A stretch of 64,000 bases of DNA from Actinomycetota bacterium (GTDB lineage: Bacteria; Actinomycetota; Acidimicrobiia; Acidimicrobiales; MedAcidi-G1): positions 1 to 64,000 of the forward strand of contig JABHCN010000006.1 in assembly GCA_018673475.1 (NCBI GenBank), in the 5' to 3' direction. Below, piece by piece: positions 265 to 30,533 of the stretch (position 1 is its first letter; every line of letters starts with the position of its first letter). Both the position numbers and the translations under genes were made by a program. Below the pieces are notes generated by a model. It was not told where the DNA came from. It did not search any database and saw nothing but the letters and a program-made list of their open reading frames with translations.

Positions 265-1122
265 TTGACCCAGAATCAGGGGACTGAGACCAACCAGAGA
301 TCCGACCTGCGACGTGGCCCCAGACGGGTCACCGACGAGCGACCGTGGTGGGACACCTTCCCCTGGTGGGGGGCGATCATCGCATCGATCCTCCTCTGGA
401 TGGCCTTTCAGATAGCCACCAACGATGACTACGAACTTGCCTGGGAGAGAATCGCCCCCGGCCTTCGCCTCACCGTCACAGCCACCCTGCAGGCCTTTGC
501 CATAGCCCTCCTGGTCGGCCTGATTGCAGGCATGGGCCAACTTTCACGCAACGTCGTGGCACGCAATATCGCCCGCACCTACGTGGAGTTCATTCGCGGT
601 ATCCCCATCCTTCCGCTTATCTTCACGGTCGCTCTGATCGTGGTTCCCGAGACGACAGACCTCCTCAACGCCCGCCTGGATGCATGGTTCGGCTGGGAGT
701 TCAAGCTGTCCTTCCAGATGAGGGCGACGGTCACCCTGGCGCTCATCTACGGCGCCTACATGGCCGAGATCTTCAGGGGTGGCATCCAGTCCATCCCCCC
801 GGGCCAGACCGAGGCCGGCAGGTCACTTGGCCTGACAAGGCGACAGACCATGAACTCGGTTGTGCTTCCCCAGGCAATGAGGGCGATCATCCCGCCCCTC
901 GGCAACGACTTCATAGCCATCCTGAAAGACACCTCCCTGCTGTCGGTACTCGGTGTGTTGGAGATCACCCAGCGGGGACGCCAGTTCTCGGCCAGCACCT
1001 TCAAGTTCCGCGAGGGCTACTTCGTGGTCTCGTTCATCTACCTGGTCCTGACGCTCAGCCTCTCCCTCCTCCTCGGGGTACTCGAGCGGCGTATGACCCG
1101 TGACCGCAGGGGGGAGCGCTGA
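265..1122 (+). CDS. Polar amino-acid ABC transporter permease (HisM/GlnP type)
   Basis: Membrane subunit of an amino-acid importer, 285 residues. After a polar N-terminal tail of about 30 residues there are hydrophobic spans near residues 33-50, 66-90, 112-130, 160-180 and 255-275. The cytoplasmic EAA loop is clear ([20 protein letters not shown] and following), the site where the ATPase docks. The family permease motif around FIRGIPILP is present. The TTG start is chosen because a GGGGGGA ribosome-binding site lies a few bases upstream and no other start fits the N-terminus. The ATPase follows after one base. No binding protein is encoded next to it on the 3' side. Confidence 0.9.
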
Positions 1123-1123
1123 G

Positions 1124-1852
1124 ATGATCAGCATCCGTGGGCTGAGCAAGACCTTCGACAAGACCATCCACGCCGTGGCCGACGTCGACCTCCATGTCGA
1201 CGAGGGCGAGGTCGTGGTGATCGTCGGACCCAGCGGATCAGGCAAGTCCACGATCCTGCGCTGCATCAACCTGCTCGAGATTCCAACGAAGGGAACGGTC
1301 GAGGTTGACGGGTTTGAGTTGACAGACACCGCCACCGACATCGACCACGTCCGGGCCGAGGTTGGCATGGTCTTCCAGCAGTTCAACCTGTTCCCGCACC
1401 TGACCGTCATGGAGAACATCACGTTGGCCCAGCGCAAGGTCCGTGGCCGTAGCAGGTCCGAGGCCCAGGAGATGGCCGTGCGCCAGCTCACCCGTGTCGG
1501 AATACCCGAAAAGGCCGATTCCTACCCACGCCAGCTGTCAGGTGGCCAGCAGCAGAGGGTTGCCATCGCCAGGTCACTCGCCATGGAGCCACAGGTGATG
1601 CTCTTCGACGAACCCACCTCGGCGCTCGACCCCGAGATGGTCAAGGAGGTCCTCGACGTCATGCTGGAGCTGGCAGCCGAGGGCATGACGATGGTCGTCG
1701 TAACCCACGAGATGGGGTTCGCACGGGCTGCTGCCGACCGGCTTGTGTTCATCGACGAGGGCGAGATAGTCGAGTCCGGGCCTCCCGATGAGATCTTCTC
1801 CAACCCGGCACACGAGCGCACCCGCGCCTTCTTCGACAAGATCCTCTACTGA
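1124..1852 (+). CDS. Polar amino-acid ABC transporter ATP-binding protein (GlnQ type)
   Basis: ATPase of the amino-acid importer, 242 residues, normal length for the GlnQ/HisP family. Walker [10 protein letters not shown] is at residues 35-43; further on are the Q-loop ([13 protein letters not shown]), the signature LSGGQQQR, Walker [13 protein letters not shown] and the switch histidine in VVTHEMGFA. The ATG at 1124, one base after the permease stop and preceded by GGGGGGAG, is preferred over an in-frame upstream start that would overlap the permease. With the permease at 265 it forms a complete membrane/ATPase pair; the substrate (glutamate, glutamine, arginine or similar) cannot be told from these subunits. 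Confidence 0.93.
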
Positions 1853-1881
1853 GCCACGCCTCGCCCTGTCCTGACCACCTC

Positions 1882-3413
<1,532 letters not shown>

Positions 3414-21537: not shown

Positions 21538-21918
21538 TCAGGCTCCCAGGAACTCGTAGAGCTTCTCTCTGGGCCGGCCTACACAGGCCTCGAGTGGACC
21601 ATCTGAGTCCAGGTCTCCCCGGATCAGGACCGGTCGCTGCATCAGCGCCTTGCGCCGTGCCAGCAACTCAACGACGGCATCGGCGTTGTCGACGTAGTCA
21701 TCGGCGACAAGGTCCAGCTTCTTGAACTGCGAGTCCTTTCGAACCAGGTCCTCGACGGGGCCGTCCATGCCTGCAACGACGCGCCGCAGGAGCGACTCGT
21801 CGGGAGGCTGCTTCATGTATAGGACTACGTCTACGTCAACGCCCAACTCCTCGGCGACCGCCAAGGCCTTCGTGGACGAGTTTCAATGCGGGTTGTGGAA
21901 GACGGTCACGCCTGCCAT
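21538..21918 (-). CDS. ArsC-like thioredoxin-fold selenoprotein candidate (in-frame UGA at the catalytic Cys position)
   Basis: Read from ATG 21918 with UGA decoded as selenocysteine, this gives 126 residues, normal for ArsC/YffB/Spx proteins. The N-terminus VTVFHNPH-U-NSSTKAL matches the ArsC active-site loop (known form HNPxC...), and the UGA is codon 12, the same number as the catalytic Cys12 of E. coli plasmid ArsC. The C-terminal part retains family residues, including LVRKDSQFK and the RPVLIRG block. AGGAG stands six bases before the ATG. A SECIS-like hairpin lies inside the gene just after the UGA. A conventional reading would start at TTG 21864 and lose the whole active site. Arsenate reduction itself is not shown; the family also includes other thiol-dependent reductases. 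The organism would need selA, selB, selC and selD elsewhere. Confidence 0.82.
21849..21866 (-). promoter_or_regulatory. Bacterial SECIS element candidate
   Basis: On the mRNA, 23 nt after the UGA (21885-21883), the 7-bp stem CCUUGGC/GCCGAGG closes on a GGUC loop (21859-21856). One pair is U-G, the rest are Watson-Crick. Two A-U pairs extend the stem below a 2x2 internal loop. From memory, the E. coli fdhF SECIS also presents GGUC at its tip, with the G and U contacted by SelB, and the distance lies inside the known bacterial range. The stem lies in coding sequence, as bacterial SECIS elements do. Confidence 0.75.
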
Positions 21919-22013
21919 CTGGTTCTCCTGTCTGGTGGTCGGCCCCTGTCAGACCGTACCCGCCTGCGACGACCACATCCCAGGATGCACACGTCGCCGG
22001 GCGGGCTGTGTCC

Positions 22014-22980
<967 letters not shown>

Positions 22981-24181: not shown

Positions 24182-24652
24182 CTAGTGGGTGACGGCCACA
24201 ACCGCTCCCGCTGTGGCCTTCACCAGGGCCTTGGGGGCGACAGGGAATACAGAATCAGGTGTACCGGCCGCAGCCCACACCTCGTCAAACTCGAGCAGGT
24301 GTGGATCGACAACGGTCCGGAGCGGTACCGCATGGCCCAACGGCGGTGTGCCACCGATTGCGTACCCGGTGGCAGACCGGACCTCGGCGGCGGCGGCTAT
24401 GCGCACCTCGAGGCCCAGGTGGGCCGCGAGCAGTTCCTCGTTGACACGTTTGGCCCCGGAACACAGAACCAGCACGGGCCTGACGTCTGCCATGAATACC
24501 AGGGACTTGACGATCTGGCCGACCCCACAGCCCACGGCCGCGGCCGCATCGGCTGCTGTACGCGTTCCGTCAGGGAACCTGTGTACCTCGACGGTCAACC
24601 CTGAGGCCTCGGCCTCACCTGTGAACCTCTCGATCGCATCGCTACGGGACAT
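24182..24652 (-). CDS. YbaK/EbsC-type aminoacyl-tRNA deacylase
   Basis: A 156-residue free-standing editing-domain protein that probably hydrolyses mischarged aminoacyl-tRNA (Cys-tRNA-Pro or related). The conserved lysine is in GQIVKSLVF, followed by the VLVLCSGAKRVNEELLA block and the substrate-pocket GGTPPLGH. Length is typical of the YbaK/ProX group. It is co-directional with, and 10 bases upstream of, the DUF6356-like gene. Confidence 0.88.
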   Translation of the reverse strand: MSRSDAIERFTGEAEASGLTVEVHRFPDGTRTAADAAAAVGCGVGQIVKSLVFMADVRPVLVLCSGAKRVNEELLAAHLGLEVRIAAAAEVRSATGYAIGGTPPLGHAVPLRTVVDPHLLEFDEVWAAAGTPDSVFPVAPKALVKATAGAVVAVTH

Positions 24653-27722: not shown

Positions 27723-30533
27723 TCACGATCGGTCAATCTCGAGGATCACATACTCGCCGACTGACAGCCCTGAGATGATCTCCACATAGGCACCGTCCAG
27801 CATGCCCGTCTGGATGCTCCTGCGTTCGATGACACCAGCCGGCGTCACCACGCGGACCTTCTGGTCTCCGCCATCTGACAGCACCGCAGCTATGGGCACC
27901 ACCACAGCGTCCACAGATTCAGCTACCACAGCATCGATCGTCACCACGGCTCCATCGACACCAACCAGATCGCTATCGGTCTGGACAACCCCTTCGTAGG
28001 TCTCGCTACCGCCTTCACTGGTTGCCGAGTCATCAATTTCGGCGATGAGTCCGCCCACCTCCTGGTCGCCAGCATCCATGTTGACCGTCACTGACTGGCC
28101 GACATCGAGCTTGGCTCGGTTCGAGGGAGTGGCAAACAGCTTTACCGTAAAGTTGGGCTCGGTCAGGGTCAGTAACGGGGTGCCACTCTGGACAAAGTGA
28201 CCCGCTTCGACGTGGACAGAACCAACCCTGGCGGGCCACTGTGCGACGACCATGTCACCTGGCAGGAACACCACGTCGTCGGCAATGGAACGGATCGGAA
28301 TGTCAACAGAACTCTCGCCGGTGCGAAGGATCGTCGTTCCGGTCAGCACCTCGAAGTCCTCCCCTGCTCTGGCACTTCCACCAATCGAGTAGTTGATAGA
28401 GGTGTCCACAGTCGCTGCCTGATCGGCCACAACGGTGACGACTGTCGTTGCACCCTCAGAGACCCAACCTCCCCCCGCGAGGGTCAACTCTGGCAGGTCG
28501 GCTGAGGCCACCCGCACGGTGGCCTCCGATCTGTGGCTGAGTAGGTAGTTGCCACTGGGGTCATCGAGAAGACGAACGGTGATGGTCTCTTCATCTTCAA
28601 CGAGATCATCTGGCCTCAGTTGTACGGTGATTGCCACCGACTCCTGGCCGGCTCGCAAGATGACGTCACCGTCGGGCTGGTTGTAGTCAGATCCAGCCGT
28701 CGCAGATCCGACAGTTTCGTAGAAGATCTCAAGGTCCTCAACCAGCGGATCAGGTGTCTCGACAGTAAATGACGCCAAACCCGACTCAACCACCGTTTCG
28801 CTGTCAGACCTGAGCACCAGGGTTGGCGCATCAGCCACGTCAGGATCGTCGATGATGACCGTTGCTGTGTCCGGGTCGCCGACGAGGTAGCGAGAGCCCT
28901 GCGCAACTCGTAGTTCCTCGCGCTTGGCATCAAGGGAGAACTCCAGCCGTCGTTGTTCATCCAAGAGGTCCTGCACCACTGTGTCTGTTGAGGCCTGGGC
29001 CTCGGCAAGGTCGGCCTCGGCTACCTCGAGAAGGAAGCTGAGCCGATCGTCCTCGCGCTCCAGGGAGGCAAGGGCATTTCCAGCTGTGTCAACAGTGTCT
29101 CTGGCCGTCGTCAACTCCGTCGATTCCTCAAGGGCAGCCGAAAGCGCGTCGTAGTAGGCGTCAAATGCCTGGGTACGGGCAGCAACGGTGATGTTCTCAG
29201 CCTCCAGATCCGCATTGGCGTCGTCGAGGGCCTCGTCGAGCGAGATCAGGTTGGCAGCCTCAGCCGGTGTCACGTCCGAAGTTACAGTCTGGACCAGAGT
29301 GATGATGCCCTTGTCCATCAGTTCCTGTTCCACGTCGGTCTTTTCCTGTTGACGTGATTCAAGACCGCTCACCTCGGCCTCCGCATCGGTGAGGTCCTGC
29401 TGTGCCTCTGCCACATCGCTGACCAACTCGGCACGACGCTCGACCAGATCGTCGATCTCAGTCTGCAGGTCGAAGACAACGAGATCCTCGGGAGCCGTTT
29501 CCGAGGTGACGATCTCGTCCACCAGTTCGGCCTGTCGCTCCAGTAGGGCGTCAAGGGCCTCCTGAATGTCAAACACCAAGAGGTCCTGTGAAGCAAGGTT
29601 GGCGGCCTCGTCAAAGCTGCTTGAGACAGTTACCTCCAGGTCCTCGTTTGCCTCACGTAGGTCATCGACCTGGGTTGTCACCACAAGGTTGGCTGTTGCA
29701 GACCCTGCGGCTATCACGACCGTGTCGTCTATGCCCTCGTAGTCGTCGGAAGTCACGTCACCGCCAATGCGGACAGCTACCACGAGGTCGCTGGCTGGTA
29801 TGGGATCAGCTGTAACGGTAAACACCACCTGGTCGCCCTCGGTGACGATCGCTTCGACCACTCGCACCGTCACAACAGGTGCTCCGGTGATGTCCTCGGC
29901 CGTGTTCCTCCTCGCCTTCCCAACTGAACGGGATGCACCGCCGATCTGTACCGACACGGTGTTCACCGCTCCGACCGAGTAGCCAGCTGGGTTTGCCTGC
30001 AGGGACACCGTCACCACCTCGTCTACCTCGGTGGCAGTACTCCCGTAGTCGTGATCGGATTGCCACTCGGCGAGACCGCTCCGAGTTTCCTCCGTGTAGT
30101 ACCGGTCCACCACTCCAACCGAGTAGCCAGCAGCGGAGAGGACCTTCTCCAGTTGCAAGACGTCAGGGCCGTCTGACCCCACGTCAAGTGGCCTATAGAA
30201 CTCCAGGTCACCGCCCACGGCCACCGCCCTTCGCCCATCGAGGCTGAACAGGACGTCTCCCACCTGAACGGTGTCACCGTCTGCGACTTCCAGGCCGGTG
30301 ATGCGGCCAGATGCCGCCGAGTTGATCGTCTGGAGTTCATCGCGGCGCAACTCGCCGCGGACTGTCAATTCCTCTGTGAGGGTGCGGGTGGTAACGGCCT
30401 CGGCTATGGCCCTGTCCCGCAAGGGATCAACAGCTGTACCGCTGTCATCCCATGGCTTCCACACGGTCAGGCCAGCCACTACCGCAGCAGCCACCACCAG
30501 TGCGAAGATTCGCACAACCAACCCGGCCTTCAT
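27723..30533 (-). CDS. Giant MacA/HlyD-like adaptor with inserted Calx-beta domains and PG-binding motif
   Basis: A 936-residue membrane-anchored adaptor, more than twice MacA length. In order: N-terminal membrane span (6-24); first half of the lipoyl-like domain (about 70-100); a peptidoglycan_binding_1-like segment (120-162, VLQLEKVLSAAGYSVGVVD...GLAEWQ); a Calx-beta domain (about 218-305); coiled coil (about 320-400 and 430-548); two more Calx-beta domains (about 570-675 and 680-750); the second lipoyl half (758-792, ARVGSVHVEAGHFVQSGTPL); a beta barrel (795-880); and the membrane-proximal domain. An internal repeat of about 32 residues appears at 318 and 350 (LLVFDIQEALDALLERQAEL and VVFDLQTEIDDLVERRAEL). 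The order implies that the hairpin arm is extended by Calx-beta modules. It lies in an operon with the MacB ATPase and permease and two upstream lipoproteins. Confidence 0.85.
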   Translation of the reverse strand: MKAGLVVRIFALVVAAAVVAGLTVWKPWDDSGTAVDPLRDRAIAEAVTTRTLTEELTVRGELRRDELQTINSAASGRITGLEVADGDTVQVGDVLFSLDGRRAVAVGGDLEFYRPLDVGSDGPDVLQLEKVLSAAGYSVGVVDRYYTEETRSGLAEWQSDHDYGSTATEVDEVVTVSLQANPAGYSVGAVNTVSVQIGGASRSVGKARRNTAEDITGAPVVTVRVVEAIVTEGDQVVFTVTADPIPASDLVVAVRIGGDVTSDDYEGIDDTVVIAAGSATANLVVTTQVDDLREANEDLEVTVSSSFDEAANLASQDLLVFDIQEALDALLERQAELVDEIVTSETAPEDLVVFDLQTEIDDLVERRAELVSDVAEAQQDLTDAEAEVSGLESRQQEKTDVEQELMDKGIITLVQTVTSDVTPAEAANLISLDEALDDANADLEAENITVAARTQAFDAYYDALSAALEESTELTTARDTVDTAGNALASLEREDDRLSFLLEVAEADLAEAQASTDTVVQDLLDEQRRLEFSLDAKREELRVAQGSRYLVGDPDTATVIIDDPDVADAPTLVLRSDSETVVESGLASFTVETPDPLVEDLEIFYETVGSATAGSDYNQPDGDVILRAGQESVAITVQLRPDDLVEDEETITVRLLDDPSGNYLLSHRSEATVRVASADLPELTLAGGGWVSEGATTVVTVVADQAATVDTSINYSIGGSARAGEDFEVLTGTTILRTGESSVDIPIRSIADDVVFLPGDMVVAQWPARVGSVHVEAGHFVQSGTPLLTLTEPNFTVKLFATPSNRAKLDVGQSVTVNMDAGDQEVGGLIAEIDDSATSEGGSETYEGVVQTDSDLVGVDGAVVTIDAVVAESVDAVVVPIAAVLSDGGDQKVRVVTPAGVIERRSIQTGMLDGAYVEIISGLSVGEYVILEIDRS

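Follow-up and report, generated by a model that had tools for sequence, protein, structure and literature searches.

A selenoprotein form of arsenate reductase with a UxxS motif was described from the Sargasso Sea in 2005 (14 sequences; PMC1088965) and again, as "ArsC 1," in GOS in 2008 (77 sequences; PMC2398784), and it is included in current reviews. This family (COG1393/PF03960) carries selenocysteine (Sec) at the nucleophile position, has a bacterial SECIS just downstream, and has widespread Cys homologues. The same features, including the UxxS motif, were found for a gene in the window, as we call the whole stretch of 64,000 nucleotides analyzed here, which belongs to a 2.04-Mb draft genome in 78 contigs. 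The published examples are environmental reads, to which the window gene is likened by description, whereas here the gene is tied to a genome, to Sec machinery, and to a lineage, that of uncultured actinobacteria in the order Acidimicrobiales. The first-pass annotation of this DNA had stated that ArsC-like selenoproteins are reported from marine microbes, which is correct (PMC1088965, PMC2398784). This kind of selenoprotein has thus been known since 2005, and the window gene is a genuine, unexceptional member. In the literature searched, three papers mention both selenoproteins and Acidimicrobiia, and to judge by titles and abstracts none appears to link the two.

The glutaredoxin-dependent ArsC of plasmid R773 and Escherichia coli (1i9d, 1jzw; TIGR00014) has the same fold as the window protein and shares with it His8, Asn9, position 12, Ser15, and three arginines. 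The window protein differs in having Sec for Cys12, in its identity of about 26 to 30%, in a longer loop ahead of the last arginine, present in its close family, in scoring under the TIGR00014 cutoff, and in being encoded outside an ars operon. The fold is also common to Spx and YffB, ArsC-like regulators and thiol reductases (1z3e, 1rw1). On the Spx side, the window protein matches TIGR01617 more weakly (36 bits), and it contains the residue sets that mark ArsC and are absent from Spx.

Reading frame and family of the window gene

The frame opens with an ATG at 21918-21916 on the minus strand, reads MAGVTVFHNPH-UGA-NSSTKALAVAEELG..., and closes after 126 codons with a UGA at 21540-21538. Written with U, the product is MAGVTVFHNPHUNSSTKALAVAEELG...YEFLGA, and the UGA at codon 12 is the only stop inside the frame.

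21541..21918, minus strand: coding sequence (126 aa) for the selenoprotein of the ArsC family, with its stop UGA at 21538-21540
21883..21885, minus strand: Sec codon UGA, codon 12, at the ArsC nucleophile position, placed by reading of the frame and alignment of homologues
21925..21929, minus strand: AGGAG resembling a Shine-Dalgarno sequence, 6 nt upstream of the ATG

The coordinates first given for the gene, 21538 to 21918, stand, and the strand, which had been left unstated, is minus; a plus-strand reading of the same interval was rejected, as no ArsC frame is found there. The ATG with AGGAG upstream was likewise confirmed, as was the assignment of the UGA to codon 12, the ArsC nucleophile column, where homologues have either Cys or UGA. 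Gene calling with table 11 returns at this locus only a 108-aa open reading frame (ORF) from a TTG at 21864, seven codons past the UGA and not nine as previously counted. An ORF begun at this TTG would be without the active site. A crude search of the window for frames combining a UGA with a hairpin gave 219 candidates, and the ArsC site ranked in the top few.

The assignment to the ArsC family, made at first from the letters alone, holds on both the domain match and the predicted fold, which matches that of E. coli ArsC. The Pfam ArsC model (PF03960) is matched with an E value of 1.7e-9 and 38.3 bits against a gathering score of 24. The match to TIGR00014 (9.3e-19, 68 bits) lies below the curated cutoff of 106, and the protein is therefore placed in the ArsC family without being certified as a glutaredoxin arsenate reductase equivalog. 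Among solved structures searched with phmmer, arsenate reductases are the best by sequence (5e-12 to 1e-11). For an AlphaFold model, the window protein (with Cys for Sec) was aligned with Cys homologues; the resulting model has a mean pLDDT of 94, and a fold search with it returned arsenate reductases first (3rdw, 3f0i, 1i9d, and 1jzw; TM 0.73 to 0.78), followed by Spx and YffB.

The residues of the active site are conserved. His8, Asn9, Cys or Sec at position 12, Ser15, Arg60, Arg95-Pro96, and Arg115-Pro116 are invariant in two alignments (n = 24 and n = 30), and the redox motif UxxS is present as U12-N-S-S15. The R773-type set (His8, Asn9, Cys12, Ser15, Arg60, Arg94-Pro95, and Arg107-Pro108) is thus complete, with Sec replacing Cys. 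The corresponding residues of E. coli are required for arsenate reduction and mark ArsC against Spx and YffB (PMC5593903).

Codon 12 and the hairpin among homologues

The same family is represented by 37 genomes, and the gene was found in 33 of them, each with a single in-frame TGA at the same place; a 34th genome (G030) has only a second paralogue. Across the order (397 genomes), close homologues mostly have TGA and Cys forms are a minority. Alignment of homologues at this column had been suggested as a check on Sec, and its outcome is clear: column 12 is TGA in 89 and TGC in 14 of the 103 homologues read directly, with no other codon seen. In a quick tree of 116 sequences computed with the Sec/Cys column masked, the labels need three changes, the tree having few columns and weak support. 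The same weakly supported tree places one pair of Cys forms (L204 and L062) within the Sec clade. Of their genomes, that of L204 (G136, 99% complete) is without selA, and that of L062 has it. From their placement, these two Cys forms look like reversions from Sec, in one case alongside loss of the machinery.

Between Asparaginase_II and RsgA, many genomes of the family have a further ArsC-family gene, which has the motif U-G-K-S and an in-frame TGA.

L058 7696-8064, plus strand: second ArsC-family paralogue, with in-frame TGA
L059 4210-4551, plus strand: second ArsC-family paralogue, with in-frame TGA
L158, L159, and L161: further loci of this paralogue

This paralogue is absent from the window genome, which has one ArsC match in total, and within the Asparaginase_II-RsgA interval of the window only a YbaK-like gene was recognized (24182-24652, minus strand).

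Downstream of codon 12 lies the hairpin that the first-pass annotation had called SECIS-like, proposing a bacterial SECIS predictor as a check.

21849..21866, minus strand: SECIS hairpin CCUUGGC-GGUC-GCCGAGG, with the apical loop GGUC at 21856-21859

Its 7-bp stem starts 16 nt past the UGA, and its folding energy is -12.0 kcal/mol (z of -2.4 against shuffles). The published bSECIS model calls for a loop of 3 to 9 nt with G in position 1 or 2, an upper stem of 4 to 16 bp, a distance from UGA to loop of 16 to 37 nt, and a minimum free energy at or below -7.5 kcal/mol (PMC13188914). The hairpin falls within all of these limits, with its loop of 4 nt (GGUC) 23 nt past the UGA, and its pairing is conserved as the bSECIS test demands, so that the early claim is sustained both by the published constraints and by covariation in the stem.

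The covariation is visible at synonymous sites. For the 76 of the 89 Sec homologues that have the same peptide motif, the codons of the loop are nearly fixed (GCG in 75 of 76 and GUC in 76 of 76), and in the rest of the gene Val is encoded by a mixture of codons. The stem pair formed between two synonymous third positions is G-C in 48, A-U in 23, G-U in 3, and A-C in 1 (Fisher 5e-15, kinship ignored). Over 26 aligned sequences, 99.5% of stem cells are paired and 19 cells are changed on both sides; none of 500 shuffles matched the pairing percentage, the two-sided changes, or the covariation score, and slid controls gave 30 to 67% paired. Some genes have a rebuilt stem along with altered amino acids, as in CGUGGC-GGUC-GCCACG (L199 and L220). 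The hairpin is absent from the 14 Cys homologues.

Folding energies are less discriminating. When the 48 nt running from the UGA onward are folded as a single sequence, the result is only modestly better than shuffles (z of -1.35), and against synonymous-codon randomization over 45 nt the mean z is -1.4 for Sec genes and -0.8 for Cys genes. Since the single-sequence energy is only modestly lower, and is lower in Cys genes too, covariation was taken as the proof instead.

One subgroup of Sec-ArsC genes has another hairpin, CAAUGC-CGUGC-GCAUUG, nearer to the UGA than that of the window gene. This difference in sequence and position indicates that the SECIS has shifted within one protein family.

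L198, L201, L202, L213, L214, L217, L219, L048, and L050: members of the subgroup with the CAAUGC-CGUGC-GCAUUG hairpin

Sec machinery and the reading of UGA

The machinery for Sec, for which a search of the genome had been advised, is complete in the genome of the window. A tRNA-Sec was detected (67.5 bits; ARAGORN anticodon TCA, that is, UCA), selA (398 bits) and selB (282 bits) are adjacent and both above the curated cutoff, and selD (364 bits) is above its cutoff as well. This selD is itself a candidate Sec-containing gene, with one in-frame TGA in the motif GAGUGCK.

G000:C3:22669-23589, minus strand: selD, Sec-containing candidate; also L141, minus-strand frame 1027-3144

Order-wide, 86 of the 90 genomes with the Sec form have selA, as against 10 of the 22 that have the Cys form only (Fisher P of 2e-7, kinship ignored). 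The four Sec-form genomes that are without selA are each 88% complete or less.

Taken from sequence and comparison, the evidence shows that the codon-12 UGA is under selection to be read. It is not a chance stop, because it recurs in 89 homologues, nearly all with a conserved hairpin after it. That the organism decodes UGA as Sec, as proposed at the outset, is supported by the machinery, by the Cys/UGA column, and by the covarying hairpin, and the window gene very probably encodes a Sec-containing ArsC-family reductase of the glutaredoxin type (R773/COG1393). SelB carrying Sec-tRNA would bind the hairpin, leading to insertion of Sec at codon 12.

A pseudogene with a premature stop, from which only a short TTG-started piece is made, would agree with table-11 calling, which yields exactly the 108-aa ORF from 21864. 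This reading is nevertheless extremely improbable. The UGA stands at the same codon across many genera in a frame free of other stops, none of the homologues showed the varied stops or frameshifts of decay, and the active-site residues upstream of the UGA (H8 and N9), which the shorter protein would be without, are kept. The SECIS covariation and the full Sec machinery speak against it as well. An error of sequencing or assembly that turned TGC or TGT into TGA has in its favor solely the draft state of the genome (78 contigs), and its probability is negligible: the same TGA is found in 89 homologues of other assemblies, with a hairpin that is missing from Cys homologues, which excludes a read error.

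Substrate and gene neighborhood

For this Sec-containing enzyme, the residue signature makes arsenate the probable main substrate; that arsenate reduction is its physiological role is less certain. In the mechanism envisaged, Arg60, Arg95, and Arg115 would hold the substrate, an oxyanion or a disulfide, for attack by the selenolate, which His8, Asn9, and Ser15 would aid, and a low-molecular-weight thiol together with a redoxin would then resolve the seleno-adduct. Mycothiol was considered as the partner thiol, and the MshA-like match scores 388 bits, below the cutoff of 462.

No ACR3 was found in 37 genomes of the family, and neither ArsB nor an ArsM above cutoff was found in 25; a route of arsenite export or methylation was thus not found. 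ArsM as an arsenite sink was rejected, the matches in the family being generic methyltransferase-like only. In the loci examined, no association with an ars operon or with arsenite efflux was seen, arsC never lying in an ars operon. Upstream of the window gene is a gene for a nitrogen regulatory protein.

22014..22352, minus strand: glnB, encoding the P-II nitrogen regulatory protein, on the strand of arsC and 95 nt upstream of it

In 30 of the 33 loci read from the family, this P-II gene is near arsC on its upstream side, and a single enoyl-CoA hydratase-like gene often separates the two. Outside the family, the loci read show no P-II gene near arsC, and the neighbors are unrelated.

These observations bear on whether the selenoprotein, with its ArsC/Spx fold, acts in vivo not as an arsenate reductase but as a selenol-based reductase of thiols or disulfides or as a sensor of redox state, possibly connected with nitrogen control by P-II. 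The failure to find ACR3, ArsB, and ArsM in the close family, the conserved glnB neighborhood (30 of 33), and the fold shared with Spx and YffB all lend weight to such a role, which we consider the less likely reading, though one with a real chance. Against it, H8, N9, S15, R60, R95, R115, and P116 are invariant and form sets absent from Spx. The glnB link is confined to the close family, with other neighbors beyond it, which argues against a general role in nitrogen metabolism; for this reason a role in nitrogen control is kept only as a rival. A narrower proposal, limited to this Acidimicrobiales family, gives Sec-ArsC a selenol-based redox function linked to nitrogen control through the conserved neighbor glnB, in place of arsenic detoxification; it appears improbable.

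Elsewhere in the same order, a gene at G040:C78:36985-37650 (plus strand) gives an ArsM-family match (NF008823, 204.7 bits, below cutoff) and has one in-frame TGA. This gene may encode a Sec-containing arsenite methyltransferase; a 2026 review lists this kind. Within the window, at 27723-30533 (minus strand), lies a gene for a 936-residue HlyD/MacA-like adaptor with a Calx-beta domain in the middle of the protein, upstream of ABC and MacB-like genes.

The gene raises the question of what job an arsenate reductase has in genomes in which no arsenite efflux or methylation gene was detected. It is a clear case of standard annotation truncating a gene past its own active site. Within the order, the Sec and Cys forms make up a natural series that tracks the presence of selA, and the SECIS lies inside coding sequence, where its covariation can be seen at synonymous sites; together, this series and the coding SECIS are useful for studying the gain and loss of Sec.
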